Part shown: positions 8,414-24,997 of the stretch, one piece after another | Position numbering within the stretch: the stretch's first letter is position 1 | How the letters are laid out: the number at the start of each line of letters is the position of its first letter | Assembly (NCBI RefSeq): GCF_020991275.1 | Contig: NZ_JAJLQY010000001.1 | Coordinates: forward strand, 930,001 to 994,000 | Direction of reading: 5' to 3' | Length of the DNA stretch: 64,000 nucleotides | Source: Actinocorallia sp. API 0066 | GTDB lineage: Bacteria > Actinomycetota > Actinomycetes > Streptosporangiales > Streptosporangiaceae | Translations under genes and position numbers: made by a program | The notes under the pieces: model-generated | What the model was told of the DNA's origin: nothing | Seen by the model: only the letters and a program-made list of their open reading frames with translations | The model's database searches: none

Positions 8414-10357
8414 ATGATCGGGAGTGGGTGGGAGGGTGGGTGTCCGGAGGAATTGGTGGGGGTTATGGGCTTGGGTGGGGTTTTGGGCAGGGTGGGGGTG
8501 GTGGTTGTTGTGCCCGTGGTGGTGGTGCTCGGGGTGTTGGGGGTGGTCGGGTGGGGGGTCTTCGGGGAGGTGGGGGAGGCTCGGCGTGGGGTTGTGGTGG
8601 GGGAAGGGGTGGGTGGGGTTGGGCGGGAGCTTGTGGCGGCGGTGCAGGTGGAGAGGCGGCTGACCGGGCCGTTTCTGGCGGGCGGGGAGGGGCGGGGTGG
8701 GCCTGCGTACGGGCGGTTGACGGCGGTGCGGGCGGTGGTGGACGAGGTTGAGGCGCGGTTTCGGAGTAAGGCGTTGAGTGGGGAGGTGCCAGCTGGGGTC
8801 GTGGCGCGGGTGGAGGGGTTGGTGGAGGCGCTTGACGGGCTTGCCACACTGCGGGAACGGGTGGACGCCGGGACGGTGTCGCCCGGTGAGGCGGTGCGGG
8901 GGCTCAGTGACGTGGTGCTGGCGGGGCTCGGTGTGGTCAGTGCGCCCGAGGTCGGCGGCGGGGGTGACGGGGCTGTGGTGTTCGCGTGGGCGCGGGAGTT
9001 CCTGTTGCGGGAGGACGCCATCGTCGGGACGGCCGTGGCCGGGCGGGGGAGGCTCTCGGCGACGCGGCACCGTGAGTTCACGGGCTGGGCGGCGGCCCGG
9101 CACCAGACCGTCACGGTTGCCCTCGCGCGGCTCGGCGGACCGAAGGCGGGCGTCGGCGCGGGCGCTGCGCACACCCAGGTGCCGGGCTCGGCCTCGGACT
9201 CGGCGCATGCCCAGGTGCCGGGCTCGGCTTCGGGCTCGGCGCATGCCCAGGTGCCGGGTCTGGCCTCGGACGTGGCGGGTAACCGGGTGCGGGATGTTGT
9301 CGCGGATGCGGCGTATGTTCGGGTGCGGGAACTTGAGGAGCTGGTGAAAGAGGCGGGGCCTGGGCGGTTGCCGGAGCGGGTGAGGGTGGGGTGGGGCCCG
9401 GCGGTCACTGAGCTGCTCGGTGTCTGGGACGCGCGGATGGGTGCGGCCGAGCGGGCGGCGCGGGTGGAGCGGGAAGCCGAGGTGGCGGCGTTGGCGCGGC
9501 GGTTGTGGTGGATCGGCGGGGTTGGGTCGGGGGTGGTTCTTGTTCTGCTGGTCGTGGCCGTGAGGGTGGGGCGTGGCCTTGTTCGTGATGGGGAGGAGGC
9601 GCGGAACGTTGTTGTTGAGGCGGGTGAAAGGGAGAAGCGGCTGAAGGAGGGGGTGGGGAGGCTGTTCCTGAACCTGGCCTGGCGGGCGCAGACGCTGCTG
9701 CACCGGCAGGAGCAGGCGCTGGACGCGGTGGAGTCGCGCGTCCAGGACGGCGAGGCGCGGGACGAGCTGCGCGGGCTCGGGCGGCTCACCGGAAGGATGC
9801 GCCGCTACACCGAGGGGCTCGTGGTGCTCTCCGGCACGGCGCCCGCGCGCGCCTGGAGCCGTCCCGTCCCGGTCGCCGACGTGCTGCGCGAGGCGGTCGC
9901 CGCGGTCGAGGACGGCGAGCGGGTCAAGTTGGTGTGCGCGGCCCGGGTGGCGCTGGCCGGGGTCGCGGTCGCCGACGTGGTGCACCTCGTCGCGGAACTC
10001 GTGGAGAACGGGACGGCTTACGCGCCCCCGCCTACCGAGGTGCTCGTTACGGGTGAGCAGGTCGCCGAAGGGTTCGCGGTGGAGGTGGTGGACAGGGGAG
10101 TGGGCCTGTCGGAGGCGGAGCTCGCCGCGCTGAACCGGCGGCTGCGGGAGGCGCCGGAGCCGGATCTGGCCGCGAGTGACCGGCTCGGGTTGTTCGTCGT
10201 CGCCAGGCTCGCCGTCCGGCACGGCATCCGGGTGACGCTGCGGCCCTCGCCGTTCGGCGGGGTCAGCGCGTTCGCGCTCGTCCCGTCCGGGCTCGTGGTG
10301 CCCGAGGAGCCCGGTTGGGACGCCGCGGCGCGCGGCTCGGGGGAGGGGTCGGCCTGA
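8414..10357 (+). CDS. Orphan CvnA-like sensor histidine kinase (nitrate-sensor type)
   Basis: A 647-residue membrane kinase resembling the CvnA component of conservons. A signal-anchor helix (VVVVVPVVVVLGVLGVVGW) is followed by a nitrate-sensor-like extracellular domain, a second helix (IGGVGSGVVLVLLVVAV, near 370-390) and the dimerisation segment NLAWRAQTLLHRQEQALDAVE. The ATPase core has an N box (ELVENGTAYAPP), G1 (VDRGVGLSE) and G2 (RLGLFVVARLAVRHGI). A HAMP domain is not obvious. ATG at 8414 is used; ATG at 8465 (GGAGG 14 nt upstream) would start closer to the helix. No roadblock/DUF742/GTPase genes follow, so it is an orphan. A triplicated 12-residue insertion sits near residues 252-287. 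Confidence 0.8.
   Translation: MIGSGWEGGCPEELVGVMGLGGVLGRVGVVVVVPVVVVLGVLGVVGWGVFGEVGEARRGVVVGEGVGGVGRELVAAVQVERRLTGPFLAGGEGRGGPAYGRLTAVRAVVDEVEARFRSKALSGEVPAGVVARVEGLVEALDGLATLRERVDAGTVSPGEAVRGLSDVVLAGLGVVSAPEVGGGGDGAVVFAWAREFLLREDAIVGTAVAGRGRLSATRHREFTGWAAARHQTVTVALARLGGPKAGVGAGAAHTQVPGSASDSAHAQVPGSASGSAHAQVPGLASDVAGNRVRDVVADAAYVRVRELEELVKEAGPGRLPERVRVGWGPAVTELLGVWDARMGAAERAARVEREAEVAALARRLWWIGGVGSGVVLVLLVVAVRVGRGLVRDGEEARNVVVEAGEREKRLKEGVGRLFLNLAWRAQTLLHRQEQALDAVESRVQDGEARDELRGLGRLTGRMRRYTEGLVVLSGTAPARAWSRPVPVADVLREAVAAVEDGERVKLVCAARVALAGVAVADVVHLVAELVENGTAYAPPPTEVLVTGEQVAEGFAVEVVDRGVGLSEAELAALNRRLREAPEPDLAASDRLGLFVVARLAVRHGIRVTLRPSPFGGVSAFALVPSGLVVPEEPGWDAAARGSGEGSA
9167..9274 (+). repeat. 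Three tandem 36-bp in-frame repeats within the kinase gene
   Basis: Three consecutive 36-bp units (9167-9202, 9203-9238, 9239-9274) encode AHTQVPGSASDS, AHAQVPGSASGS and AHAQVPGLASDV. They lie in the sensor domain. The nucleotide copies are almost identical, so this looks like a recent in-frame slippage expansion that may vary between strains. Confidence 0.9.
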
Positions 10358-10369
10358 CCGTCCGGCCGG

Positions 10370-11392
10370 TCAGGCGAGGCGCCGCACGACGTACTCGGCG
10401 AGGGCGGTGAGCGCGGCCGCGGCCGGGCCGCCGAGCTGGTCGATGACGGCGAGGGCGGCGGTGAGCTCGCGTTCGGCGAGCTCCTCGGTGAAGCGGCGCC
10501 CGCCCGCCTTCTCGATGAGGTCGGCGGCGCGCAGCGCGCGCGCGTCGTCGTCGGGGCGGGCGGCGAGGAGGTCGGCGAGGCCCTCGGTGTCGGTGCGCAG
10601 CGCGGCGACCACCGGCAGGCTCTTTTTGCCCTGCCGCAGGTCGTTGTGCACGGCTTTGCCGGTGACGTCCGGGTCGCCCCAGATGCCGAGGAGGTCGTCG
10701 ACGGCCTGGAAGGCGAGGCCCAGGTGACGGCCCATCGCGTCCATCCGCTCGGCCCCGGCGGAGTCGCCGCCGCCGAGCAGCCAGCCGAGGGAGGCGGCGC
10801 AGCCGAGCAGCGACGCGGTCTTGCCCGTCGCCATCGCCGTGTACTCCTCGACGGTGACGGCATGCGGACCGCTCCAGGCACGGTCCTCGAAGGCGGTGTC
10901 GGCGGCCTGCCCGTTGACGAGTTCGACGAGCACCCCGGTGAGCCGCCGGACGGCTTCGGCGTGTCCGGTGCGGGCGAGGGTGTCCAGGGCGAGGGCGAGG
11001 AGTCCGTCTCCGGCGAGCACCGCGGCGCCGACGCCGTACGCCTTCCACGCGGTCTGGCGGTGTCGGCGCAGTTCGTCGCCGTCCATGATGTCGTCGTGCA
11101 CGAGGGAGAACGCGTGCGTGAACTCGACGGCGACGGCGCCGGGCGCGGCGTCCTCGGGGCGGCCTCCGGCGGCGGTGGCGGCGAGTCCGGCGAGCGCGGG
11201 TCGGACGCCCTTGCCGCCGTCGCCGTCGCGGGGTGTGCCGTCGGCCTCGCGCCAGCCGAAGGTGAAGCCGGAGATCTGGCGCGGGCCCGGGTGCAGGCGG
11301 TTCGCGGTGTCGATCATCGCGGGCCGCATCCAGCGTCTGGTGTCGTCGAGTATCCCGGTGATCCCGGGAGCGAGTGCCTGGGGGGTCATCAT
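10370..11392 (-). CDS. Polyprenyl diphosphate synthase (GGPP/FPP synthase-like)
   Basis: A 340-residue trans-prenyltransferase that condenses isopentenyl diphosphate with allylic diphosphates. Both Mg-binding motifs are intact: first DDIMD (residues 100-104, within SLVHDDIMDGDELRRHR) and second DDLLGIWGD (232-240). The substrate-binding GKGVRP motif is near 61. The form resembles enzymes that supply GGPP to actinomycete diterpene clusters, but chain length cannot be fixed by eye. Start ATG at 11392 (a second ATG follows directly) has AAAGGG upstream. It is divergent from the P450-terpene synthase-cyclase operon across an AT-rich promoter region and probably provides its substrate. Confidence 0.88.
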   Translation of the reverse strand: MMTPQALAPGITGILDDTRRWMRPAMIDTANRLHPGPRQISGFTFGWREADGTPRDGDGGKGVRPALAGLAATAAGGRPEDAAPGAVAVEFTHAFSLVHDDIMDGDELRRHRQTAWKAYGVGAAVLAGDGLLALALDTLARTGHAEAVRRLTGVLVELVNGQAADTAFEDRAWSGPHAVTVEEYTAMATGKTASLLGCAASLGWLLGGGDSAGAERMDAMGRHLGLAFQAVDDLLGIWGDPDVTGKAVHNDLRQGKKSLPVVAALRTDTEGLADLLAARPDDDARALRAADLIEKAGGRRFTEELAERELTAALAVIDQLGGPAAAALTALAEYVVRRLA

Positions 11393-11730
11393 GCGGCCCT
11401 TTCTCACGACTGCGATGGCGCCGATATTCCAGACTGCCAAAAACGATCATCTGATGAAACCATTCTTGGTTTCATTGTTGTAAGTATCTTTCGATGATCG
11501 GTCGATTGCGGAGAGTCATTCCGATAAATGCCTGTAGCGGAGAGTTCATCACTTCTCACGGCCTGTATCGCATTGTGTGAGAGGTCACAGGAACGTGTCC
11601 GACTTGTCAGGTTGCGTACGTCTTGATCCTCTCATTGGATCATGAAACACTCCGGACTTGTCGGGTTCATCCTGGTCTGGTCTGTAACCCGGACCGGACC
11701 GGCGCGTGTACGGAAAGAGGCGTCCGAACA
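11393..11730. promoter_or_regulatory. AT-rich divergent promoter region of the terpenoid cluster
   Basis: A 338-bp intergenic region much less GC-rich than its flanks. It contains inverted repeat ATGAAACC / GGTTTCAT (11454-11461 and 11468-11475, 6-nt loop). This is enclosed by a second pair, CGATCATC (11444-11451) and GATGATCG (11493-11500). A near-direct repeat GACTTGTC(A/G)GGTT occurs at 11601-11613 and 11655-11667, 54 bp apart. These are plausible regulator-binding sites controlling the divergent prenyl synthase and P450 operon. A ribosome-binding site (AAAGAGG, 11714-11720) precedes the P450 ATG. Confidence 0.55.
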
Positions 11731-13115: not shown

Positions 13116-13958
13116 GTGAAAGACCTGCTCGACGCCCGTGGCTGCGGCATCGCCGCCGCCGTCTCCGGCCAGTCCCAGCGGCGGATGCGCGGCTGGGCGG
13201 CCCGGTATCCAGGCCTGTACGACAAGCCCGAGTTCGACCCCGCCCTGTACGGCACACTCGCCCAGGCGACCGCGTTCAGCGGCCCCTGGTACGGCGCCGA
13301 CCAGCTCGACGCCGCCAACAAGACCTGCCTGTGGGCGTTCGGCCTCGACTGGCTCGTGGACTACCAGGCCAAGTCCGAGGACGAGGTGACGACCCTGCTC
13401 ACGCGGATCACGGCCGTCGCCGCGGGCGAGGCCGAGCCGGACGACGAGCTGACCACCTTCCTCGCCGAACTGCGAGACGACCTGCCCGAGGACCCCGCCC
13501 TGCGCGGCGTCTGGCGGGACGAGCTGGCGATCATGCTCGACGGCATGGCCCTGGAGTGGCGCTGGAAGACCGAAGGCCCGCGCCCCGATCTTGACGGCTA
13601 CCTCGCGAACGCCGACAATCTCGGCTTCTCGTTCGTGTTCTTCGCACACTGGATCGCCAACGGCGCGACCGGCGACCTCCCGGCGATCCGGGACGCCAGC
13701 CGGGTCGTGCAGCGGGTGATCCGGCTGCTCAACGACCTGGGCACCTACGAGCGCGACCTCAAGTGGGGCGACCTCAACGCCCTGCTGCTGCCCGGCGCCG
13801 ACCGGGCCGCCGTGGAGAAGCGGATCGAGGAGCTCATGGCCGAGGCCAGGGAGCTGCTCGCCGCGCTGCCGCCCGAGCACGGCGGCTACATGCGCAGGCA
13901 GATGGAGTTCTGCGCGGGCTTCTACGGCGTCACCGACTACTGGGGAGCTGAACTTTGA
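13116..13958 (+). CDS. Class I terpene synthase
   Basis: A 280-residue all-alpha terpene synthase that would ionise a prenyl diphosphate. The aspartate-rich site is atypical (LDWLVD, Asp78 and Asp82, a DxxxD rather than DDxxD). The second metal motif is NDLGTYERD (206-214), matching the (N/D)DxxS/TxxxE pattern with Asp as last ligand. An RY-like pair is not evident at the C-terminus. GTG at 13116 is preferred (GAGGA 7 nt upstream); GTG at 13110 is possible. The small size and the following class II cyclase suggest it removes the diphosphate from a bicyclic intermediate, as in labdane-type pathways. The product is not predictable. Confidence 0.82.
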   Translation: MKDLLDARGCGIAAAVSGQSQRRMRGWAARYPGLYDKPEFDPALYGTLAQATAFSGPWYGADQLDAANKTCLWAFGLDWLVDYQAKSEDEVTTLLTRITAVAAGEAEPDDELTTFLAELRDDLPEDPALRGVWRDELAIMLDGMALEWRWKTEGPRPDLDGYLANADNLGFSFVFFAHWIANGATGDLPAIRDASRVVQRVIRLLNDLGTYERDLKWGDLNALLLPGADRAAVEKRIEELMAEARELLAALPPEHGGYMRRQMEFCAGFYGVTDYWGAEL

Positions 13959-15454
13959 CCGACCGGGACGAGCGGGCCCAGCGGATCGTCGACGGCCTGC
14001 TCGCCCAGCCGTGGGGGAGGTCCTCCCCTTCGGTGTACGAGACCGGCCGTCTGGTGGCCCTCACGCCCTGGCTGGCGGGGCACGACGCGCGCGTCAGGCA
14101 CCTTCTGGCGGCGCAGCGGCCCGACGGAGGGTGGGGCCCGCCCGACGGCCCCGGCTACCGGATCGTGCCCACGCTCAGCGCCGTGGACGCCCTCCTGTCC
14201 GAAGGCGGACCGGCCGCCCTTGAGGCCGCGGAGAAGGGCCTCGTGTACGTGCGCGGCCTCCTGTCCGAGCTGCCCCCGCTGCCGGACATGCCCGCGCTGG
14301 AGCTGATCTCCGCGTCGCTCATCCGGGCCGTCAACGCGCGCAGGCCGGACGCCGTGCCCGTCCCGCCCGACCTGGACGACGGCACGCTCGACCTGGTCAG
14401 GGCGGCCGCGACGGACGGGCGCGCGCTGCCCGTCAAGCTGCTGCACGCGCTGGAGATCCTCGGCCCCGACGCGGTCGGCCTGGCCACCGCGCCCGTCGAG
14501 CCGACCGGCACCGTGGGGGCCGCCCCGGCCGCCACCGCCGCCTGGCTCGGCCCGCAGGAGCCGCCGCCGAGCCATCCCGCGCGGCGCTTCCTGGAGACGG
14601 CAGCGCGCCAGTACGGCGGTCCGGTCGCGCCCGGTGTGCCCATCACCGTCTTCGAGCGCGGCTGGGTGCTCATCGCGCTCGCCCGCGCGGGCCTGGACTT
14701 CACCCCGCACCCGGACCTGCTGCTCAGCCTCTCGGGGTCGCTCGGCGAGCACGGCGCGCCCGCCGCCGCGGGCCTGCCGCCGGACGCCGACACCACCTCC
14801 GGCGCGCTGTACGCGCTCGACTGGCTGGGCGCGCCCGTCGCGCCCGACATGCTGCTCTCCTACGAGACGGAGACGCACTTCTGCACCTGGCCCGGCGAAC
14901 AGGGCAGATCGGTCACGACCAACGCGCACGTCCTCGAAGCGTTCGGCAGGGCGCTGGAACGCGGCGCGAATTCGCGTTACGAGGCGGCGGCGGCCAAGGC
15001 GGCGGCCTTCCTGCGCGCGACCCAGCGGCCCGAAGGCTTCTGGGACGACAGGTGGCACGTCTCCCCGTACTACGCGACCATGTCGGCGGCGCTGGCCCTG
15101 GCCGCCTATGGTGGTCCGGAGAGCGCGGAGACGGTCGCGGGGGCCGTCGCGTGGGTCCGCGCGACCCGGGGCGCGGACGGCGGCTGGGGCGGCCGGGGCG
15201 CCACCGCAGAGGAGACCGCGTTCGCCCTCCACGTGCTGCTGCTCGCCGACCCCGACGGCGCGGGCCCGGACGACCCGGACGTGCGTGCCGGAGCGGCGTT
15301 CCTGGACCGCTGGAACGGGACGCATCCCGCCCTCTGGCATGACAAGGACCTCTATCTTCCGGTGGCGATCGTGGAGGCCACGGTGCTCGCCGCGGCGCGT
15401 CTCGCGGGCGCCGCGCCAGGCCATGCGCGGTCTCACCGGGCGTTGGTCACGTAG
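13955..15454 (+). CDS. Class II terpene cyclase with DxDTT motif
   Basis: A 499-residue protein of the squalene-hopene/copalyl diphosphate synthase fold (length of two alpha-barrel domains). QW-type repeats are visible (QRPDGGWG at 54-61, QRPEGFW, ADGGWGG). The protonation motif is DADTT (277-281): the first and the middle catalytic Asp are kept, but the usual fourth Asp of DxDD is Thr. DxDTT variants are known from some drimane-forming class II cyclases. The enzyme would protonate and cyclise an intact prenyl diphosphate. The start is TTG overlapping the synthase stop (TTGA) with GGGGAG upstream, so it is translationally coupled. Confidence 0.85.
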   Translation: MTDRDERAQRIVDGLLAQPWGRSSPSVYETGRLVALTPWLAGHDARVRHLLAAQRPDGGWGPPDGPGYRIVPTLSAVDALLSEGGPAALEAAEKGLVYVRGLLSELPPLPDMPALELISASLIRAVNARRPDAVPVPPDLDDGTLDLVRAAATDGRALPVKLLHALEILGPDAVGLATAPVEPTGTVGAAPAATAAWLGPQEPPPSHPARRFLETAARQYGGPVAPGVPITVFERGWVLIALARAGLDFTPHPDLLLSLSGSLGEHGAPAAAGLPPDADTTSGALYALDWLGAPVAPDMLLSYETETHFCTWPGEQGRSVTTNAHVLEAFGRALERGANSRYEAAAAKAAAFLRATQRPEGFWDDRWHVSPYYATMSAALALAAYGGPESAETVAGAVAWVRATRGADGGWGGRGATAEETAFALHVLLLADPDGAGPDDPDVRAGAAFLDRWNGTHPALWHDKDLYLPVAIVEATVLAAARLAGAAPGHARSHRALVT

Positions 15455-15671
15455 AAGCATCCTCATACTCCGGAACGCATTTCTGTGACTTATCTGGAAG
15501 ATGCTGTGATGTTGTCGTTTACAGCGATGCCGACCTACCGGTGTTGCTATCGTGTCTGACCGTCGATCCGAATCGGTACCGCAGATCCAGTGCCGCGTTT
15601 GATTCGACTTTGTTAACGGGACGCCGGCCCGCCGGTGATCCCTCGTCTATGTGCGATGGAGCGGCTGTAAT

Positions 15672-17933
15672 ATGCGTCTCCGCAATTCTCGGGTGCGGAC
15701 CAAAATCACGGCTCTGCTGCTCTCGCTCGCCGCGCTGTGGGTCTTCGCCGCCTGGGTCACCCTCCGTGAGGGCGTGAACCTGCTCTGGGTCCAGCAGATG
15801 GACCAGCGGATCTCGCAGCCGGGTGACGTCCTCCTGCTGGACCTCCAGAAGGAACGTCGGCTTTCGATGATCCTCGCGGGCCAGCGCGACCCCGCCAACG
15901 TCGACGCGCTGCGCGAGCAGCGCGCGGCGACCGACAAGTCCCGCGCCGAGTACACCCGGCTCGCCGACTCCACGCTCGCCCGGCTCGCGTCCGACGACCT
16001 CCTGGAGCGCCGGATCGACGCGTCCTTCACCGCGCTCAACGAGCTGGAGGAGGCGCGGCAGTGGTTCGACAACCCCAGCTCGCAGTACGCGGACTGGGCG
16101 CGCGCCCGCTACACCGACGCGATCGCGGCGATGTTCCGCGTGTACGACGGCATGGCCACCCTCGACGACGACAAGTTCGCCGCCGACACCCGCATGCTGG
16201 TCGCGGCCAACCGGGCCCGCGAGCTGTTCTCCCAGGAGGACGCGCTCGTCTCCGGCGTGCTGGCGACCGGCCGCTTCACCACCGTCTCCTACAACGAGTT
16301 CGTGCAGATCGTGGGCGCGCAGCGGCACGCCTACAGCGAGGTCGTGCAGGGCCTCTCCGAGGCGTTCCCGAAGGCCGGGGAGGGCATCTCCTCCAGCGCG
16401 ACCCGCGCCAAGGCCAACGGCCTGGAGGACCAGCTGATCGGGCTCGCCAACCCGCGCAAGCCGATCCGCACGGTCACCCTGAGTGAGTGGAGCACGGCGT
16501 CCAGTGCCTGGCTGGACGAGGGCTACGGCTACGTCCGAGGCTCCGGTGACCTCCTGATCGAGGCGTCCATCCCGATCGCCGCGGGCGTCATCGTCCGTCT
16601 GATCCTCGCCGGTGGTCTCGGCTTCCTCGCGGTCGTCGCGTCCGCCATCCTGTCGGTCACCACCGCGCGGCACCTCGTGCAGCAACTGGAGCGGCTGCGC
16701 GACTCCGCGCACGAACTCGCCGACGTGCGGCTCCCGGACGTCGTCGACCGGCTCGGCCAGGGTGAGAGCGTCGACGTCAAGGCCGAGGCGCCGCCGCTGG
16801 AGTTCGGCGACGACGACATCGGCAAGGTGGGCCAGGCGTTCAACGCCGTCCAGGAGACGGCGATCCGCACCGCCGTCGAGCAGGCCGAACTGCGCCGCGG
16901 CATCCGCGACATCCTGCTCTCCCTGGCCCGCCGCACCCAGGCGCTCGTGCACCGGCAGCTGACCCTGCTGGACGTCATGGAGCGCCGCGAGATCGACACC
17001 GAGGAGCTGGAGGACCTCTTCAAGATCGACCACCTCGCGACCCGGATGCGGCGCAACGCCGAGAACCTCATCATCCTCTCCGGCGCGACCCCGGCCCGTG
17101 GCTGGCGGCGCCCCGTCCCGATGGTGGACGTGGTCCGCTCCGCGGTGTCCGAGGTCGAGGACTACACGCGCGTCACCGTCATGCCGATCGACGAGGTCCA
17201 CCTCGTGGGCCGCGCCGTCGCCGACATCGCGCACCTGCTCGCCGAGCTCATCGAGAACGCCGTGTCGTTCTCGCCGCCCTACACCTACGCGCAGGTCTCC
17301 GGCCACATGGTGGCCTCGGGCTACGCGATCGAGGTGGAGGACCGCGGTCTCGGCATGTCGGACGAGAACCTCGAACTGATCAACCAGCGCATCGCCCACC
17401 CGCCGGAGTTCAACCTCTCCAGCTCGGTCCAGCTCGGCCTGTACGTGGTCGGCAAGCTCGCCGAGCGGTACGGCATCCAGGTGATGCTCAAGCGTTCGCC
17501 CTACAAGGGCACGACCGCGGTGGTGATCATCCCGCGGGAACTCATCGAGGAAGGAGAGTCCGGCGCGCCGTCGAAGCCCTTGACGGTCGTCGGGGCGTCC
17601 ATGCCGGAGAGCACCGACACGCCGAGCCGGAACGGGGAGCTGTTCAGCGCACCCGCCCTGGTTCCCCCTCCCGCACCCGCCGTCGAGGCGCCGCCTGCCG
17701 TCTCCGCGTCGTCGGCCGAGGACGCGTCTGACCCGTCGCAGACGACGCCGTCCGGGCTGCCGGTGCGGGTTCCGCAGGCCAGCCTCGCCTCCCAGCTCCG
17801 GGAGGACCCGAACGAGGCTCCCGCCGAAGACGATCCAGGCCGTTCGCCCGAGGAGATCCGCAGGATCGTGGGCGCGTTCCAGAGCGGCACACTGCGCGGC
17901 AGGGCCGCCTCCGTTGAGAGTGAGACCGAGTGA
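15672..17933 (+). CDS. cvnA: Conservon sensor histidine kinase CvnA
   Basis: A 753-residue membrane kinase. TM1 is near residues 10-30 (ITALLLSLAALWVFAAW). A nitrate-sensor-type extracellular domain, TM2 near 300-330 and a HAMP-like linker (RHLVQQLERLRDSA) follow. The dimerisation segment is LARRTQALVHRQLTLLD. The ATPase domain has N box ELIENAVSFSP, G1 EDRGLGMS and G2 QLGLYVVGKLAERYGI. The C-terminus is a Pro/Ser/Thr-rich disordered tail with a short conserved end (PEEIRRIVGAFQSGTLRG). CvnA acts with CvnB-D as a membrane complex likened to a G-protein-coupled receptor. ATG at 15672 is preferred over 15651. Confidence 0.9.
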   Translation: MRLRNSRVRTKITALLLSLAALWVFAAWVTLREGVNLLWVQQMDQRISQPGDVLLLDLQKERRLSMILAGQRDPANVDALREQRAATDKSRAEYTRLADSTLARLASDDLLERRIDASFTALNELEEARQWFDNPSSQYADWARARYTDAIAAMFRVYDGMATLDDDKFAADTRMLVAANRARELFSQEDALVSGVLATGRFTTVSYNEFVQIVGAQRHAYSEVVQGLSEAFPKAGEGISSSATRAKANGLEDQLIGLANPRKPIRTVTLSEWSTASSAWLDEGYGYVRGSGDLLIEASIPIAAGVIVRLILAGGLGFLAVVASAILSVTTARHLVQQLERLRDSAHELADVRLPDVVDRLGQGESVDVKAEAPPLEFGDDDIGKVGQAFNAVQETAIRTAVEQAELRRGIRDILLSLARRTQALVHRQLTLLDVMERREIDTEELEDLFKIDHLATRMRRNAENLIILSGATPARGWRRPVPMVDVVRSAVSEVEDYTRVTVMPIDEVHLVGRAVADIAHLLAELIENAVSFSPPYTYAQVSGHMVASGYAIEVEDRGLGMSDENLELINQRIAHPPEFNLSSSVQLGLYVVGKLAERYGIQVMLKRSPYKGTTAVVIIPRELIEEGESGAPSKPLTVVGASMPESTDTPSRNGELFSAPALVPPPAPAVEAPPAVSASSAEDASDPSQTTPSGLPVRVPQASLASQLREDPNEAPAEDDPGRSPEEIRRIVGAFQSGTLRGRAASVESETE

Positions 17934-18340
17934 TGCAGAAGACCGGGGCAGGCGCCGATCTGGCGTGGCTGCTAGACGACCTGGTCAAGCGGGTCAACGA
18001 GGCCGAGCACGCCATCGTGCTTTCGGCCGACGGCCTGCTCATGGCCCAGTCGCACGGGATCGTCCGCGACGACGCGGAGCACCTGTCGGCCGTCGCGGCC
18101 GGTATCCAGAGCCTGGCCAAGGGCGCGGGCGAGCGCTTCGGCGGCGGCGCGGTACGGCAGACGATCGTGGAGATGCGGTCGGCGTTCCTGCTCGTCACCG
18201 TCGCCGGGCAGGGCGCCTGCCTCGCCGTCCTCAGCACCGAGGACGCCGACGTCGGCCTCATCGCCTACGAGATGGCGATGATGGTGACGAAGCTGGGCCA
18301 CCACCTCTCGACACCGGCACGGGTGACGGAGTCGGCGTGA
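17933..18340 (+). CDS. cvnB: Roadblock/LC7-domain protein CvnB
   Basis: A 135-residue single Roadblock/LC7 domain protein (AWLLDDLVKRVNEAEHAIVLSADGLLMA, then the helix HLSAVAAGIQSLAKG). In conservons CvnB binds the kinase and GTPase and probably modulates nucleotide cycling, as MglB-type proteins do. The ATG shares one base with the cvnA stop (TGATG) and the gene ends inside the cvnC start, so the operon is tightly coupled. Confidence 0.92.
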   Translation: MQKTGAGADLAWLLDDLVKRVNEAEHAIVLSADGLLMAQSHGIVRDDAEHLSAVAAGIQSLAKGAGERFGGGAVRQTIVEMRSAFLLVTVAGQGACLAVLSTEDADVGLIAYEMAMMVTKLGHHLSTPARVTESA

Positions 18341-18726
18341 GCTACCCGCCCCAGGAGCCGGACCAAGAGCGCTGGACCGACGACGGCGCCGGTCCCCTCG
18401 TCAGGCCGTACGTGATGACCGGCGGACGGCTTCAGCCCGTCCGCGGCAACTTCGACCTGATCACCCTGGTGGAGGCGACGGGACCCGTTCCCGCGCACGT
18501 GATCGGGCTGGGCCCCGAGCACCTGTCGATCCTCCGCCTCACCCAGACGATGATGTCGGTGGCCGAACTGACCGCGCACCTGGACCTCCCCTCCGGAACG
18601 GTTCGGGTACTGCTGGGCGATCTGCTCGACAAGGGTCATGTCACCGTCCAGGAACCCACACCGGAGATCGACATGCAGGACCTCAGGATGTACCAGGCGG
18701 TGATCGATGGCCTCCGCGCCCTCTAG
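18337..18726 (+). CDS. cvnC: DUF742 protein CvnC
   Basis: A 129-residue DUF742 protein: the conserved LVRPYVMTGGRLQP near residue 21, followed by a winged-helix-like region (MMSVAELTAHLDLPSGTVRVLLGDLLDKGHV) and the C-terminal LRMYQAVIDGLRAL. This is the typical third component of a conservon and may bind DNA or a partner protein. The GTG start overlaps the cvnB stop (GTGA). The longer open frame upstream is the shadow of cvnB. Confidence 0.92.
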   Translation: MSYPPQEPDQERWTDDGAGPLVRPYVMTGGRLQPVRGNFDLITLVEATGPVPAHVIGLGPEHLSILRLTQTMMSVAELTAHLDLPSGTVRVLLGDLLDKGHVTVQEPTPEIDMQDLRMYQAVIDGLRAL

Positions 18727-19297
18727 CGCTCCGGGGACGCGCCGCCGCATGCCCACGGCGATCAAGATCCTCGTGGCGGGCGGCTTCGGCGCCGGCAAGA
18801 CGACGCTCGTCGGCACCGTGTCGGAGACCAAGCCGCTGCGTACCGAGGAGGTCCTGACCGACCGTGGTATCGGCGTCGACCATCTGGACGGCGTCGAGGC
18901 CAAGCGGACCACCACGGTCGCGATGGACTTCGGCCGGATCACCTTCGGCGACGAGTTCGTCCTCTACCTGTTCGGTACGCCGGGCCAGGAGCGGTTCTGG
19001 TTCATGTGGGACGAGGTGGCGCTGGGCGCGCTCGGCGCCGTCGTCCTCGCCGACACCCGGCGCCTGGCCGACTGCTTCCCGGCGATCGACTACTTCGAGC
19101 GCCGCGGCACCCCGTTCATCGTCGCGGTGAACTGCTTCGAGGGGGCGCAGCGGTACGACGTGCACGACGTCAGGCAGGCGCTGCAGATCCCGGGCGAGAT
19201 CCCCGTCGTGCTGTGCGACGCCCGGTCCAAGGAGTCCTCCAAGGAGGTCCTCATCACGCTGGTGCAGCACGCGATGCGCCAGCGCGCGGCCCGCTAG
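18707..19297 (+). CDS. cvnD: Ras-like GTPase CvnD
   Basis: A 196-residue small GTPase of the conservon type. The P-loop is GGFGAGKTT, the switch II region is FGTPGQERFWF, and the position of the NKxD base-recognition motif is VNCFEG, a divergence usual for CvnD proteins. It cycles between nucleotide states under control of CvnA/CvnB. The start at 18707 overlaps the end of cvnC by 20 nt; ATG at 18749 with GGGGA upstream is an alternative. It closes the cvnABCD operon. Confidence 0.9.
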   Translation: MASAPSSAPGTRRRMPTAIKILVAGGFGAGKTTLVGTVSETKPLRTEEVLTDRGIGVDHLDGVEAKRTTTVAMDFGRITFGDEFVLYLFGTPGQERFWFMWDEVALGALGAVVLADTRRLADCFPAIDYFERRGTPFIVAVNCFEGAQRYDVHDVRQALQIPGEIPVVLCDARSKESSKEVLITLVQHAMRQRAAR

Positions 19298-19303
19298 CCG
19301 GGC

Positions 19304-20158
19304 TCAGCTGCACCCTTCGAACTGCGGCACGTGCCCGGTGGTCTTCAGTCCGGCAGGACGGAACCACCGGGCCAGCAGCCGTGCCGCCGTCCCGTCCTGG
19401 TACATCCGGGTGAGCGCCCGGTTGACGGCCTCGCATCCGCCGATGTCGTCCTTGTGCAGGCCGATCCCGTACTTCTCGTCGGTGAACTTGGCGTTCACGA
19501 GGCGGAACGCGTCGGGGTTGGCCAGGGCGTACCCGGCGAGGATCACGTCGTCGGTGGTGAGCGCGTCGAGGTCGCCGGCCTGGAGCATCCGGACGCACTC
19601 GCCGTAGGTCGCGGCGGGCACGAGCCGCGCCTTGATGCCGAGTTCGACGGTGACGCGCCGCCACGAGTTGGAGCCGCCCGCCTGGCACAGCCGTTTGCCG
19701 CGCAGGTCGTGCACGCCCGCGACGTCGGTGGCGTCCTCGCGGACCATGATGTCCTGGTGGCCGATGATGTACGGGCCCGCGAAGTTCACCTCGCGCCGCC
19801 GGTCCGGCGTGATCGAGTAGGACGCGACGACGAGGTCCACCTCGCGGTCCCTGATCCGCCGCTCCCGCTGGTCGGAGGTGATCCGGACGAACTCGGGGGT
19901 GGCGCCGAGCGCGGCCGCGACGTACTCGGCGACGTCCACGTCGAAGCCCTCGAAGGTGCCGTCGCGGCGTTCCTGGCCGATGCCGGGCTGGTCGAACTTC
20001 ACACCGACGCGCAGCACCTTCTTGCCCTCGATGCCGGTGGGCTCCTCGTCGGTGCAGCCCGCGAGCGCGGCGCTGAGTGCGGCGCAGACGAGGAGCGGGG
20101 CGAGGAGGAGGCGGAGACGCATAGGGGAGTGTCCCTTTCGGGCGGTGCGGGGGCTCAT
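19304..20158 (-). CDS. glnH: Amino-acid-binding lipoprotein (GlnH-like)
   Basis: A 284-residue periplasmic-type solute-binding lipoprotein (SBP family 3, glutamine/glutamate type). The signal peptide ends in lipobox ALAGC (Cys near residue 35). Family motifs include FEGFDVDVAEYVAAAL and VDLVVASYSITPDRRREVNFAGPY. No transporter permease or ATPase is linked. Instead it overlaps the stop of a GlnX-like membrane protein gene (ATGA) in a pknG operon, as in the mycobacterial GlnH-GlnX-PknG module, where the lipoprotein senses Asp/Glu/Gln rather than importing it. ATG at 20158 is preferred because of the overlap; 20122 is possible. Confidence 0.85.
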   Translation of the reverse strand: MSPRTARKGHSPMRLRLLLAPLLVCAALSAALAGCTDEEPTGIEGKKVLRVGVKFDQPGIGQERRDGTFEGFDVDVAEYVAAALGATPEFVRITSDQRERRIRDREVDLVVASYSITPDRRREVNFAGPYIIGHQDIMVREDATDVAGVHDLRGKRLCQAGGSNSWRRVTVELGIKARLVPAATYGECVRMLQAGDLDALTTDDVILAGYALANPDAFRLVNAKFTDEKYGIGLHKDDIGGCEAVNRALTRMYQDGTAARLLARWFRPAGLKTTGHVPQFEGCS

Positions 20159-21564
20159 CGGAACTCCGCGAGCCGGGGCCGGACGCCCAGCAGGACCAGC
20201 GCGAGCACGGCGGCGGCGCCGACGGGCAGGCCGGTGCCCCAGCCGCCGAGTGCCCGTTCCGCCCTGGTGATCCGGTCGTCGAAGACGGTGCGGCCGCGGG
20301 CGACGAGCGCGCCGAGCTCGCGGTCGTAGTCGGCGTAGACGCCGACCATCGTGCCGGTGCGCAGCACGATCGCGTGCCTGGTGCGGCCCGCCCCGGCCAG
20401 GCCGCGCAGCGTCCTGTCCGCCTTCTGGAACGCCCGGTACCTGACGACGACGGGGTCGGTCGCCTTGGTGGACTGGAGGAAGCCGCCCTTCAGCGGGACC
20501 TTCTCCAACGCCGTGTAGTAGGCGGCGAGGTTGCCTGCGGGCACGTAGGCGATGGTCTGGGACGTGTCGAAGTACACCTGTTCGTAGGTGTCGGCGCGGG
20601 CCGGGTCGATCAGCCAGCGGACCTGGTCGGCCGCCGCGGTGTTGCTGATCGCGCGGGCACGGGCGTAGGTGAGGGCGCTGTCGAAGCCGTCCTCCTTGGC
20701 CGCGCGCAGGTGCGCCGAGGAGCGGCCGAGCGACGTCGCGGCGAGCGCGGTGATCGCGAGGGCGACGGCGGTGGCCAGCGCGAGCGGCGGGCTGACGGCG
20801 CGGCGGAACCTGCGCGAGATCGTCACCTGGAGGCCGCCGAGGACGCCGAGGAGCACCACGCCCGCGACGGCGACCCGGGCGAGCGCGTCGGTGGCCCGGT
20901 CGGTCTCCGAGACGTGGGTGCGGCGGACGATCGCGGCGCTCTCCAACGTCAGGTTGTACGCCTGCGGCAGGAGCTGGGCGCGCATGAGGTCGGTGGCCTG
21001 CCGGTAGACGGCCAGGACCGGGGCGGGCGGCGGGCCCGCGCGGTGCCCGGCCCGCTCGTCCAGCACGAGGGCGCGGGCGGCGAGCCGCTCGTAGGCGCCC
21101 AGCCCGTCCAGGACGGACTGGACGGTCTCCCGCCCCGTGGCGTTCTGCCCGGCGATGTCGAACGCCTGGAGCACGGCCTGGCCCGCCTCCCGGCGGCGCT
21201 TCTCGTAGATGGCGAGCGCCTTGGCGCGGCCCTGCCCGAGCCGGTGCTCCCGGCCGATGAGGAGGATCCCGGCGAGCTGCGCGTCCATGTCGCTGAGCGC
21301 GAGGTAGAGGGTGCCGGTGTTGACGGCCTGCGGCCCGGCGTCCCGGCCGATGACGCGCAGCCCCTCGCGGGCCTCGTCCACGCCGCTGTGCACGGCGGCG
21401 AACAGGCCGACCAGGGCGAGCGCGACGGCCGCCGTCCAGATCCGCAGGACGGCCGGGACGGTGCGGGGCGGGCCGAGCGCGCCGCCGCGCCGCCGGTAGC
21501 GGGCCCGGCGGCGGCGGGGCCCGGGCTCCCGTCGCCGGGACGGCGGGGCGAGCGTGTCCGTCAC
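20155..21564 (-). CDS. glnX: GlnX-like membrane sensor protein
   Basis: A 469-residue membrane protein with four predicted helices: AVLRIWTAAVALALVGLFAA near 40-58, ALARVAVAGVVLLGVLGGL near 225, LALATAVALAITALA near 255 and LPVGAAAVLALVLLGV near 448. Two large extracellular helical regions lie between them. The N-terminus is very Arg-rich and cytoplasmic. Position between a PknG kinase/PP2C pair and a GlnH-like lipoprotein matches GlnX, which in mycobacteria relays amino-acid binding by GlnH to PknG. Sequence similarity to GlnX was not computed, so identity rests on topology and synteny. Confidence 0.75.
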   Translation of the reverse strand: MTDTLAPPSRRREPGPRRRRARYRRRGGALGPPRTVPAVLRIWTAAVALALVGLFAAVHSGVDEAREGLRVIGRDAGPQAVNTGTLYLALSDMDAQLAGILLIGREHRLGQGRAKALAIYEKRRREAGQAVLQAFDIAGQNATGRETVQSVLDGLGAYERLAARALVLDERAGHRAGPPPAPVLAVYRQATDLMRAQLLPQAYNLTLESAAIVRRTHVSETDRATDALARVAVAGVVLLGVLGGLQVTISRRFRRAVSPPLALATAVALAITALAATSLGRSSAHLRAAKEDGFDSALTYARARAISNTAAADQVRWLIDPARADTYEQVYFDTSQTIAYVPAGNLAAYYTALEKVPLKGGFLQSTKATDPVVVRYRAFQKADRTLRGLAGAGRTRHAIVLRTGTMVGVYADYDRELGALVARGRTVFDDRITRAERALGGWGTGLPVGAAAVLALVLLGVRPRLAEFR

Positions 21565-21604
21565 GGCGGTGCTCCTCGTCGGCCGGGGCGCGGGCTGGGC
21601 GGGC

Positions 21605-22540
21605 TCACAGTTCCAGCCCGCCCGCCTCGACGGGGACTATCGCGACGGTGATGTTGTCGTGGCCGCCGCCGTGCAGCGCCGCCCGCACCAGCTCGCGGGC
21701 GACGGCCAGCGGGGTGCGGCGGCTGCCGCGCGGGCCGGTGAGCGGCCCGGAGACGGGGTCGGCGAGCGGGTCGGCGACGGCGGCGGCCATCGCGATGGGG
21801 GAGGCCATGTAGTTCCACAGGCCGTCGGTGCAGACGACGAGGACGCCCGGCACCTCGGGCGCGTAGACGCGGACGTGCACGTCGATGTCGCGGGCGTCGG
21901 CGCCGAGCCAGCCGACGAGCATGTGCGCGCGCCGGTCGGCGTACGCCTCCTCCTCCGTCATCATGCCGTGCGCGATCACGTACTCGGCCCACGAGTCGTC
22001 CTCGGTGAGCAGCTCGTCGCCGGTGGCGCCGACCCAGTAGGCGCGGCTGTCGCCCACCCAGCCGAGCGTGATGGTGTCGCGGCCGTCCACCCGTCCGGCG
22101 ACGGCCGAGATGTAGGTGCAGGCGGGGGCTGCGGTCCGGTCGGCGGTGAGGGAGGCGACGGCCTTGGCGGCGGCCAGCGCGGCCGTCCGGGTGGCGTCGC
22201 GGGCGTCGGCTCCGGCGTCCAGTTCGGCGGTGAGCACCGCGAGGCCCGTCTCGACGGCGGCGCGGGACGCCTCGTCGGGCCGGGGCGAGGCCGACACCCC
22301 GTCCGACAGCACGGTGACGACGCCCGCGCCCGTCCTGGCCAGCGCCATGCCGTCCTGGTTGACCGCGTGCCGAAGGCCCCGGTCGCTCACCGCGGCGGCG
22401 TCGTGCCCCAGGTCGATCTCCGCGTGGTCGGCCGGCGAGGTGCGCCGGGCCGGGCCGCCCGCCTCGGCCAGCCGGTGGCCGCAGGACTCGCAGAACACGT
22501 CACCGGAGAGGACCGGTGCGGAGCAGATCGGGCAGTGCAT
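21605..22540 (-). CDS. PP2C-family Ser/Thr phosphatase with N-terminal zinc ribbon
   Basis: A 311-residue protein. An N-terminal zinc ribbon (C3-xx-C6 and C17-xx-C20) precedes a PPM/PP2C catalytic domain with the metal-binding and structural motifs SDRGLRHAVNQD, LSDGVSASPRPDEAS, GWVGDSRAYW, VVCTDGLWNY and GGHDNITVAIV. It should dephosphorylate Ser/Thr proteins in the cytoplasm using Mn/Mg. It lies 31 nt downstream of pknG and 40 nt upstream of glnX, so it is probably the cognate phosphatase of PknG or its substrates. The zinc ribbon echoes the metal-binding rubredoxin-like motif of PknG. Confidence 0.9.
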   Translation of the reverse strand: MHCPICSAPVLSGDVFCESCGHRLAEAGGPARRTSPADHAEIDLGHDAAAVSDRGLRHAVNQDGMALARTGAGVVTVLSDGVSASPRPDEASRAAVETGLAVLTAELDAGADARDATRTAALAAAKAVASLTADRTAAPACTYISAVAGRVDGRDTITLGWVGDSRAYWVGATGDELLTEDDSWAEYVIAHGMMTEEEAYADRRAHMLVGWLGADARDIDVHVRVYAPEVPGVLVVCTDGLWNYMASPIAMAAAVADPLADPVSGPLTGPRGSRRTPLAVARELVRAALHGGGHDNITVAIVPVEAGGLEL

Positions 22541-22571
22541 GTCGTTCCGTTCGCTGGGAGCTGGCGGCTGT

Positions 22572-24647
22572 TCACAGAAGTGTTCTCGGCCGGACGGCGT
22601 TCGCGCGGGCGATCAGTCGGTGCCTTTCCGGTGTGTCGTCGCAGAGCCGGGCGAGTGTCCGGTAGGTCCGTTCGAGTCCTTTGCGCAGGCCGCGTTCGGT
22701 GAGGGGGTCGCCGAGCAGGCGGGCGGTGGAGCGGTGTCCGGCCAGGACCCAGCCGAGCGCGGCGTCGAGCACCTCGGCGGCGAGCCTGCCGTGCCGTTCG
22801 GCGTCCAGGCGGAGCCGGTCGAGCCGGTGCCCGGCGTCCAGCAGCTCCTCCTCGGTCAGTTCGGCGGGGGCGCGGCCGAGGACGAGCGCGCGGACGGCGG
22901 CCATCCCGGCGGCCTGGCGGTGGCTGGAGACCGCGGGCACCGAGTCGAGCGCGGCGACGGCGCCGGGCCGGTCGCCGCCCGCCAGCCGCACCCGGGACAG
23001 GCCGAACGCGGCGCTCACGTGCGAGCGTCCGGTCCGCCAGACGGCGAGGTAGCGGCGGGCCGCGGAGTCCAGGTCGCCGAGCAGCTCGCAGCAGAACGCG
23101 AGGCCCAGCTTGGGCGCGAGCTCGCCGGGCAGCAGCGCGTACAGCGCGTCGAACGCGGCGGCGGCTTCGGCGGCGTCGCCTGCGGCCAGTGCCGCCATGG
23201 CCAGGCACCAGCCGGCCCGCCAGTCGTCGCGCAGCGGCGCGAGCAGCGCCCGCGCCGCGTCGCGGCCGCCCAGCTCGATGTGCGCGAGCGCCTGGCGCAG
23301 CAGCGCCTCGGGGGAGGCGTCGCCCGCGGCGGCCAGCGCGGCGAGCACCGCGACGGGGTCGTCGCCGCCCGGCCCCGCCGCGCCCGCGATGAGCGGCACC
23401 GGCAGCGCCTGCACCGCGCGTTTGGGGGTGAGCTCGCCGGTGACGGTGTGCCGCTCGGGCCCGAACAGCGTGGACGGCGCGGGCCTCGGCTCCTCGTCCT
23501 GGGCCGACAGCACCTCGCGCAGCACCCCGGTGAGCTGCTCGGCCATCTCGCCCGCGTCGGTGAAGCGCGCGAACGGGTCGCGGGAGCAGGCGCGGCGTAG
23601 GAACCTGTCGTAGGACTCGTGCTCGCGGAGCACGTCCACCTGCTCTCGGGGCGGCAGGTCCGCGACGTAGGTGGTGGTGAAGCGGCGGAACGGGAAGCTG
23701 AGGACGGCGAGGGTACGGCCGACGGTGAACAGGTCGGAGGAGACCGAGGGGCCGAGCCCGGAGATCTCCGGCGCCTGGTAGCCGACCGTGCCGTAGATGG
23801 CCGAGGTGAAGTCCTCCATCCGGCGCACTCCGCCCAGGTCGATGAGCTTCAGCTGCTCCTCCGCCTGGATCGCGTTGTCCGGCTTGAGGTCGCAGTACAG
23901 CAGGCCGAGCGCGTGCAGGTAACCCATCGCCCGGAGCACCTCAAGAGCGTAGGCGATGGCCTGCGCGAGCGGCAGGGCGGTGTCGGGTCCGTGCTCCTCA
24001 CGGTGCTGGAGCAGCACGTCCTTGAGTGACTTGCCTCCGACGTACTCCATGACGATGTAGCCGACCATCGCGAAGGTGCGCGGCTCGGGGTGCTGGACGA
24101 AGTTGTAGATCCGGACGATGTTGGGGTGCTCGACCTCGGCCAGGAACGCCTTCTCGGCGGCGGCGACGGCGCCGGCGGCGGGGTCGCCGGTGTCCAGCAG
24201 GCCCTTGAGGACGACCCAGCGGTCGTTCACGTTGCGGTCGCGGGCCAGGTACACCCAGCCCAGGCCGCCGTGCGCGAGGCAGCCGAGCACCTCGTACTGG
24301 CCGCCCACGAGTTCGCCGGGCCGCAGCTTCGGCAGGAACGAGAACGGCGAGCCGCAGCGCGGGCAGTAGCCCTCGGTGCGGCCCGGCCTGCCGCCGCGCC
24401 CCCTGCCCACGGGTTCGCCGCAGCGGCAGAACCTGCGGCGCTCGGCGACGACGGGGTCCTTGAGCACCGCTTCGGCGGGGTCCCGGTACGGCACCGGGGG
24501 CACCTCGACCAGGCCCGCCCCGAGCAGGCCGCGCCGGGACCGGCCGCTGGTGGAGCCCCGTGCTGAGGGCGCCGACCAGGCCGCCGGGGGCCGGATCGAA
24601 CCCGTCCGGGGGAATCCGTCGTCCGCGACGGTCGGCTTGTGGTCCAT
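22572..24647 (-). CDS. pknG: Soluble Ser/Thr protein kinase PknG
   Basis: A 691-residue PknG-type kinase without a membrane helix. A rubredoxin-like metal site (C74-x-C76 and C95-xx-C98) precedes the kinase domain: glycine loop AHGGLG, Lys148 in VLKGL, catalytic loop YCDLKPDN (no Arg before Asp, so non-RD), and DLG in place of DFG. The C-terminal about 250 residues are TPR-like helices. In mycobacteria PknG phosphorylates the FHA protein GarA/OdhI and tunes glutamate metabolism and the TCA cycle. ATG at 24647 is chosen (GGGGA upstream); GTG at 24698 preceded by GGAGG is a real alternative. First gene of pknG-PP2C-glnX-glnH. Confidence 0.92.
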   Translation of the reverse strand: MDHKPTVADDGFPRTGSIRPPAAWSAPSARGSTSGRSRRGLLGAGLVEVPPVPYRDPAEAVLKDPVVAERRRFCRCGEPVGRGRGGRPGRTEGYCPRCGSPFSFLPKLRPGELVGGQYEVLGCLAHGGLGWVYLARDRNVNDRWVVLKGLLDTGDPAAGAVAAAEKAFLAEVEHPNIVRIYNFVQHPEPRTFAMVGYIVMEYVGGKSLKDVLLQHREEHGPDTALPLAQAIAYALEVLRAMGYLHALGLLYCDLKPDNAIQAEEQLKLIDLGGVRRMEDFTSAIYGTVGYQAPEISGLGPSVSSDLFTVGRTLAVLSFPFRRFTTTYVADLPPREQVDVLREHESYDRFLRRACSRDPFARFTDAGEMAEQLTGVLREVLSAQDEEPRPAPSTLFGPERHTVTGELTPKRAVQALPVPLIAGAAGPGGDDPVAVLAALAAAGDASPEALLRQALAHIELGGRDAARALLAPLRDDWRAGWCLAMAALAAGDAAEAAAAFDALYALLPGELAPKLGLAFCCELLGDLDSAARRYLAVWRTGRSHVSAAFGLSRVRLAGGDRPGAVAALDSVPAVSSHRQAAGMAAVRALVLGRAPAELTEEELLDAGHRLDRLRLDAERHGRLAAEVLDAALGWVLAGHRSTARLLGDPLTERGLRKGLERTYRTLARLCDDTPERHRLIARANAVRPRTLL

Positions 24648-24997
24648 CAATTCCCCATTATCGGACAAGCGCCGCCTTTCGGTATTGTTTACCCCCACTC
24701 CGCCTCCGGAGTTGTACGGTCCGTGACCGCTGTTTTCCTCTTTGGATGCGAGATTCCCGCAAGCGGTTCATCTAGGTGGGCATCATGCGAAAACCCACCC
24801 GGTCTGGGACGCGTCAAAGGGGTTTCGTGGTCCGTCCGGAACGTCGGCGAACCGGAAACCGGGGACGGACCCCCGCCAGGAGGTCGCAAACCGGTCGGGA
24901 CCGGCGCGCCGGGAACGGTCCCGTCTCCCCGGCCGCGTGGACGCGCTCCGTCATCCCGCCCCGCATTGAGTCGATCTTGGTGGGGTAGGTCGCGGAC
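24648..24997. other. 350-bp divergent intergenic region upstream of pknG
   Basis: Contains the promoters of pknG (minus) and the hydrolase-like gene (plus). A TACAACT element on the minus strand about 20 nt before the alternative GTG start of pknG could be a -10 box. An inverted repeat GGTGGG (24775-24780) / CCCACC (24794-24799) with a 13-nt loop is present. Nothing else was recognised. Confidence 0.35.

Follow-up and report, generated by a model that had tools for sequence, protein, structure and literature searches.

The class II terpene cyclase gene of the window (the whole 64,000-nucleotide stretch of Actinocorallia sp. API 0066 DNA that was analysed) most likely encodes a GGPP-using copalyl diphosphate (CPP) synthase of the SaCPS type, located in a pimarane-type operon that is tied to a conservon. 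The cyclase itself looks like an ordinary bacterial enzyme, and most likely it makes a bicyclic diterpene from a C20 precursor. Since this ordinary-looking enzyme is part of a widespread actinobacterial gene set beside a signalling system, its unusual DxDTT motif is no pointer to a 15-carbon product. We consider it probable that the beta-gamma didomain cyclase converts GGPP into CPP, likely of the normal series, and that a class I enzyme and a cytochrome P450 of the same conservon-tied cassette then form and modify a tricycle.

The cyclase gene and its cassette

The open reading frame that the first-pass annotation had placed at 13955..15454 of the forward strand was recovered there. It starts with TTG and encodes 499 amino acids. 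The proposed class II terpene cyclase identity was borne out by a Pfam SQHop_cyclase_C match (57.2 bits, cut-off 26.1) and by likeness to PtmT2, Tpn2 and Rv3377c, and the QW-type repeats are visible and conserved (cyclase residues Q54-G58-W60, Q357-G361-W363 and D408-G409-W411). The genome contains one copy of the cyclase. The TTG start overlaps, as TTGA (13955-13958), with the stop of the preceding class I gene, and a GGGGAG lies 7 nt upstream of the TTG, suggesting that the two genes are probably translated together.

Sequence, motif, synteny, orthology and model fold of the cyclase and its cassette were observed directly. Upstream on the same strand are a cytochrome P450 (11731..13086), which shares 39% identity with the P450 that takes this position in the G641 locus described below, and a Sat1646-like class I diterpene synthase (13116..13958) with the metal motifs LDWLVD and NDLGTYERD. 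Downstream, also on the forward strand, follow a cvnA-type NIT/HATPase sensor kinase (15651..17933), a cvnB-type Roadblock/LC7 protein (17930..18340), a cvnC-type DUF742 protein (18328..18726, start approximate) and a cvnD-type small GTPase (18707..19297). This is, in order, the make-up described for conservons (cvnA-D, AGPS; PMC13343842). The linked prenyl synthase of the first-pass annotation is also present. It is a probable GGPP synthase with a DDIMD motif and a polyprenyl_synt match, encoded divergently at 10370..11440 (-). Its scores were below the curated cut-off of all 16 NCBIfam models matched, the top two being a family 2 encapsulin cargo model (353.5 bits, cut-off 450) and GGPP synthase IdsB.

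A second NIT/HATPase kinase gene is found upstream of the cassette (8414-10357, +), and matches upstream of the cassette are also found in L002 and L195. On the other side, 19304-24698 (-) encodes in a row a solute-binding protein, one protein with no Pfam hit, a PP2C phosphatase and a PknG-like kinase, which we take to be a GlnH-GlnX-PknG-like block. Between 10000 and 19600, two terminators were found, with 2.0 expected from shuffles, and a promoter scan of the same range yielded a single promoter-like site, which falls within the class I gene.

In order to survey the cassette, 80 named loci (L002-L081) were inspected. Nine had too little flank and 71 were scored, with cvnC outside the count. 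P450, class I, cyclase, cvnA, cvnB and cvnD were in this order on one strand in 54 of the 71 loci. The class I gene alone was missing from its slot in 11, and both P450 and class I were missing there in four (L026, L031, L037, L073). L047 lacked P450 and cvnA, and L079 showed cvnD only. A GGPP-synthase-like gene was located upstream on the other strand in 28 of the 71. On the Micromonospora side, all four hand-picked flanked loci (L154, L155, L156, L114) had the cassette order. L114, on a Micromonospora zamorensis plasmid (NZ_CP107937.1 39465-54937), contains all seven cassette genes and, immediately downstream of them, a tyrosine recombinase.

Two kinds of deviating loci were also seen. In the Actinomadura loci L031, L034, L037, L073 and L079, cvn genes accompany the cyclase, but neither a P450 nor a class I match was seen in the vicinity; their cvnA match is weak, short or missing, and the motif is DADTT (DADSS in L034). 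In the Nonomuraea loci L058, L065 and L077 the class I gene lies in reverse orientation between the cyclase and cvnA.

No conservon match (E 1e-8) was obtained in five flanked DxDD control loci (L187-L190, L194), nor was a conservon found in the outlying DxDT/S loci L191 and L192; in L193, a contig of 4 kb, a cvnA-like gene is encoded on the opposite strand. L191, L192 and L193 indicate that motif and conservon do not always occur together. The linkage of the diterpene cassette to a conservon in two actinobacterial groups is one of the newer points of this analysis. The open-access literature that was searched, outside which most subscription journals fall, yielded no report of a conservon-terpene linkage, and the covered parts of the conservon literature, including PMC13343842, mention P450 accessories and not terpenes. 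From its position, we infer that the conservon (cvnA-D) would regulate the cassette. A common diterpene operon tied to conservon signalling makes a test of this regulation simple.

In the window's order, 207 of 345 genomes, covering 30 of 70 genera, had a cyclase match (E 1e-20 or better), as did 176 of 350 genomes in the family on the Micromonospora side; in both groups most were counted by match alone, motif and synteny aside. The two genomes of the same genus contain the cyclase at 79% and 66%, and Actinocorallia populi likewise scores 66%. Among the matches listed, those in G154, G168, G228, G254, G256, G260, G285 and G324 contain one in-frame stop.

Fold, catalytic residues and predicted reaction

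The solved structures closest to the cyclase by sequence were PtmT2 (E 8e-83), Tpn2 (7xkx, 8e-55) and Rv3377c (6vpt, 5.6e-27), the rest being much weaker. An AlphaFold2 model built from 36 sequences (pLDDT 90.9, pTM 0.91) has the beta-gamma didomain fold of bacterial class II diterpene cyclases. Its Z scores were 48.4 for PtmT2 (over 477 residues), 43.7 for Tpn2 and 39.9 for Rv3377c. The structure comparison placed these three cyclases, among them the GGPP user Rv3377c, far above the FPP-using drimenyl synthases, with a Z of 29.4 at most among the entries listed for SsDMS and of about 22 over 267 residues for AsDMS/drimenol synthase.

Mapping on Tpn2 and PtmT2 identified D111/E116, H164, D277, D279, T280, H325, W367, W461, D463 and Y467 as the corresponding sites of the window cyclase. 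R366 is Lys in both reference enzymes, and W312 is Tyr or Phe (Phe in PtmT2). D111-E116 (14285..14302, +) form a DxxxxE at the position of the putative Mg/diphosphate motif of PtmT2 and Tpn2, H325 (14927..14929, +) is at the position of the acid-activating Tpn2 H342, and D463 (15341..15343, +) is at the labdane/clerodane switch position (roles according to PMC9814783). Both the central Asp (D279) and the activating His (H325) of class II diterpene cyclases are present. The switch residue is described as D502 in PtmT2 (labdane), G485 in Tpn2 (clerodane) and A475 in Rv3377c (halimane), and Asp at this position as tied to labdane formation (PMC9814783). Among 139 DxDT/S cyclases it was Asp in 130, Gly in 7, Gln in 1 and a gap in 1; with Gly in 7 of the 139, the family is not uniform.

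The closest functional counterpart came from a search with part of Sat1646 (E 1e-60 or better) in the family of Micromonospora solifontis. Of 354 genomes, 170 gave matches, and G641 alone matched at 98%. This locus has P450, class I, class II, cvnA, cvnB and cvnD in order on one strand. Its cyclase, which carries DADTT and LWHDKDLY, can be taken as SaCPS/Sat1645 on the strength of its 98% Sat1646 neighbour. Sat1646 is the enzyme that forms isopimaradiene in the sat/terp1 cluster of Salinispora; sat is described as almost identical to terp1, with few residues differing between Sat1645 and SaCPS (PMC9814573). According to the same source, SaCPS converts GGPP into CPP and the three terp1 enzymes together yield isopimara-8,15-dien-19-ol. 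The experimental backing for SaCPS is slight, as Sat1645 was reported to be insoluble when produced recombinantly and the yields given for SaCPS/SaDTS in earlier work were low. The window locus has the P450-class I-class II order of terp1. Its cyclase is 46.6% identical overall to that of G641 (class I partners about 40%) and agrees with it at 22 of 24 catalytic and pocket positions, the differences being E/D at the Glu of DxxxxE and G/A at the position of Tpn2 244. The class II pocket is also strongly conserved in general, with a mean entropy of 0.27 bits in 113 paired loci compared to 1.47 for the whole protein, a value that none of 20000 random column sets reached.

Based on published work on these relatives, we infer substrate, product, stereochemistry and residue roles as follows. 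The divergent prenyl synthase would supply GGPP. D279, activated by H325, would protonate it, with Thr280 standing for the second Asp. The resulting labdane bicycle would be deprotonated with the help of D463 to CPP, most probably of the normal series. CPP may then be ionised by the neighbouring class I enzyme to form a pimarane-type or related tricycle, which the P450 would oxidise.

A different bicycle from GGPP, namely ent- or syn-CPP, a hydroxylated labdane or the halimane type made by Rv3377c, appears unlikely. The nearest crystal structure is that of an ent-CPP synthase, so that the normal configuration predicted for the window rests on operon analogy, and the class I relative Sat1646 is reported to accept syn-CPP too (PMC9814573). 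Rv3377c shares DxDTT in the form DCDTT, but it is more distant (25% identity, Z of 39.9 against 48.4 for PtmT2), and the switch residue of the window cyclase is Asp, not Ala or Gly. The agreement at 22 of 24 positions with a SaCPS-type cyclase likewise argues for normal CPP. The first-pass annotation had left the choice between a drimane and a labdane product open. The product class is no longer evenly open, as the comparison largely settles it in favour of a labdane.

The DADTT motif and the substrate

The protonation motif was confirmed as DADTT at residues 277-281 (14783..14797, +), with D279 as the central acid and T280 at the fourth position. It aligns with DSDDT in PtmT2, DGDDT in Tpn2 and DCDTT in Rv3377c. 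The window cyclase does not have a strict DxDD, and neither does Rv3377c, an accepted class II member. We collected 176 full-length cyclase ORFs, one per locus and including the window; 145 were left after removal of identical cores. The fourth motif position was Thr in 134, Ser in 5 and Asp in 6 of these, and one of the 134 Thr sequences reads DYGTV, a broken motif without the central Asp. Thr or Ser is the norm in the nearest relatives (139 of 145) and not a chance variant; as the loci are the best matches per search, this share holds for the nearest relatives and not for all class II cyclases.

A quick tree, for which 147 cyclases were thinned to 84 and which left out CavC and Rv3377c, placed the window and G641 cyclases in one clade of 69 rows (SH-aLRT 98). 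The eight DxDD rows were separated from all others by one change, with a low support of 32. Long branches (Tpn2, L112, L184, L185) make the deep part of the tree unsure.

The first-pass annotation had read DxDTT as a hint of FPP and drimane chemistry. The hint did not hold up, as DxDTT is found in the GGPP user Rv3377c, described as making a C20 product (PMC9814783), and probably also in the SaCPS-type cyclase. HAD-fused drimenol synthases carry DxDTT as well (PMC9128629), and with the motif present in both kinds of enzyme, it says nothing about the substrate by itself. In actinobacteria it should not be taken for a mark of FPP or drimane chemistry, as probable CPP synthases with this motif form a large group.

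An FPP-using drimenyl diphosphate synthase, with a drimane sesquiterpenoid as the cluster product, is very improbable, and we rejected this reading. The HAD-type drimenol synthases that share DxDTT are fusion proteins of far lower structure rank, and only SQHop domains were matched by Pfam in the window cyclase, with no N-terminal HAD domain. CavC, an actinobacterial drimenyl-PP synthase, is described as DXDD, with a Nudix hydrolase reported beside DMS genes (PMC11035983). An unannotated ORF on the S. clavuligerus megaplasmid, which is probably CavC judged by its place, has DIDDT and shares 21% identity with the window cyclase; blastp gave no match to it up to E 1. Among nine proteins scanned around the cyclase (8.4-20.2 kb, part of the ORFs), no Nudix hydrolase was found. 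The much lower Z of SsDMS (29.4, compared to 48.4 for PtmT2) and the adjoining Sat1646-like class I synthase also argue against the use of FPP.

A squalene- or hopene-type cyclase, suggested by the Pfam name SQHop_cyclase_C and named by the first-pass annotation as a possible clustering partner, was rejected as practically negligible, as the cyclase did not cluster with such enzymes, scored 46.2 bits with the NCBIfam hopene cyclase model (cut-off 431.1) and likewise far under the cut-off with the squalene model, has a length of 499 amino acids, and reached a Z of only about 27 with 1sqc/2sqc.

The class I partner and comparison with known systems

The GGPP-using CPP synthase would deliver its product to the class I enzyme, in which the effector/base segment NADNLGF (13608..13628, +) has Leu at the position of the catalytic Tyr183 of Sat1646. 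Tyr183 is the proposed base for the C-9 proton, and Y183F is reported to give isopimara-8(14),15-diene instead (PMC9814573). Across 119 class I homologues (non-redundant, the best one of each locus, window copy included, chosen by homology and not by place beside a cyclase), this position was Phe in 34, Leu in 33, Tyr in 22, Cys in 10 and Thr in 10, with Val (4), Ile (2), Ser (2), Met (1) and a gap (1) as rarer states. On a class I tree of 72 rows, built without that column, with Sat1646 and the window in and near relatives thinned, at least 22 changes were counted. The class I pocket as a whole is not unusually variable; its entropy in the 113 paired loci was 1.43, compared to 1.69 for the whole protein, and fractions of 0.20 and 0.80 of random column sets were as low or lower and as high or higher, respectively. 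The near-frozen class II pocket contrasts with the changeable base position of the class I partner.

Micromonospora, Verrucosispora and Microbispora are described as sources of pimaranes, and Actinomadura and Streptosporangium as sources of norditerpenoids. With the exception of Verrucosispora, each of these genera has named relatives of the cyclase. A Micromonospora gave an 8,15-diene (PMC4584356), and L064 (Micromonospora) has Tyr at the Tyr183 position; Microbispora hainanensis CSR-4 gave an 8(14),15-pimaradiene (PMC7338456, PMC10301674), and the residue is Cys in L004 (M. hainanensis DSM 45428). The reported compounds loosely fit the residue, as two points with loci that are not from the producing strains. 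Position 183 of the class I enzyme provides a site-specific prediction for product diversity. We consider it quite improbable that the cassette serves across the lineage as a diterpenoid signal-and-sensor unit, in which a fixed DxDT CPP synthase and a changing class I base would yield a species-specific oxidised pimarane-type compound sensed or gated by the conservon.

Among known systems, the actinobacterial drimenyl-PP synthases SsDMS and CavC share the class II fold (seen for SsDMS) but use FPP, have DxDD and are about 20% identical; a Nudix neighbour is reported for them. The AsDMS-type HAD-fused drimenol synthases have the DxDTT motif in common with the window cyclase, but consist of a HAD domain fused to one beta-type domain. 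Tpn2, the terpentedienyl-PP synthase (7XKX), resembles the cyclase in fold, catalytic His and DxxxxE, and differs by DxDD, Gly485 and a clerodane product. The tuberculosinyl-PP synthase Rv3377c (6VPT) is alike in DxDTT and fold and uses GGPP, but has Ala at the switch, a halimane product and 25% identity. PtmT2, the ent-CPP synthase (5BP8), shares fold, Asp switch, His and DxxxxE; unlike the window cyclase it has DxDD, Lys for Arg366 and Phe for Trp312, and it belongs to the ent series (PMC9814783), in contrast to the normal series predicted here. The normal-CPP synthase SaCPS/Sat1645, for which the G641 cyclase stands in, corresponds to the window in gene order, DADTT, LWHDKDLY and 22 of 24 positions, and the two systems differ in an overall identity of 46.6% and in the Leu that replaces the catalytic Tyr183 in the window class I enzyme.
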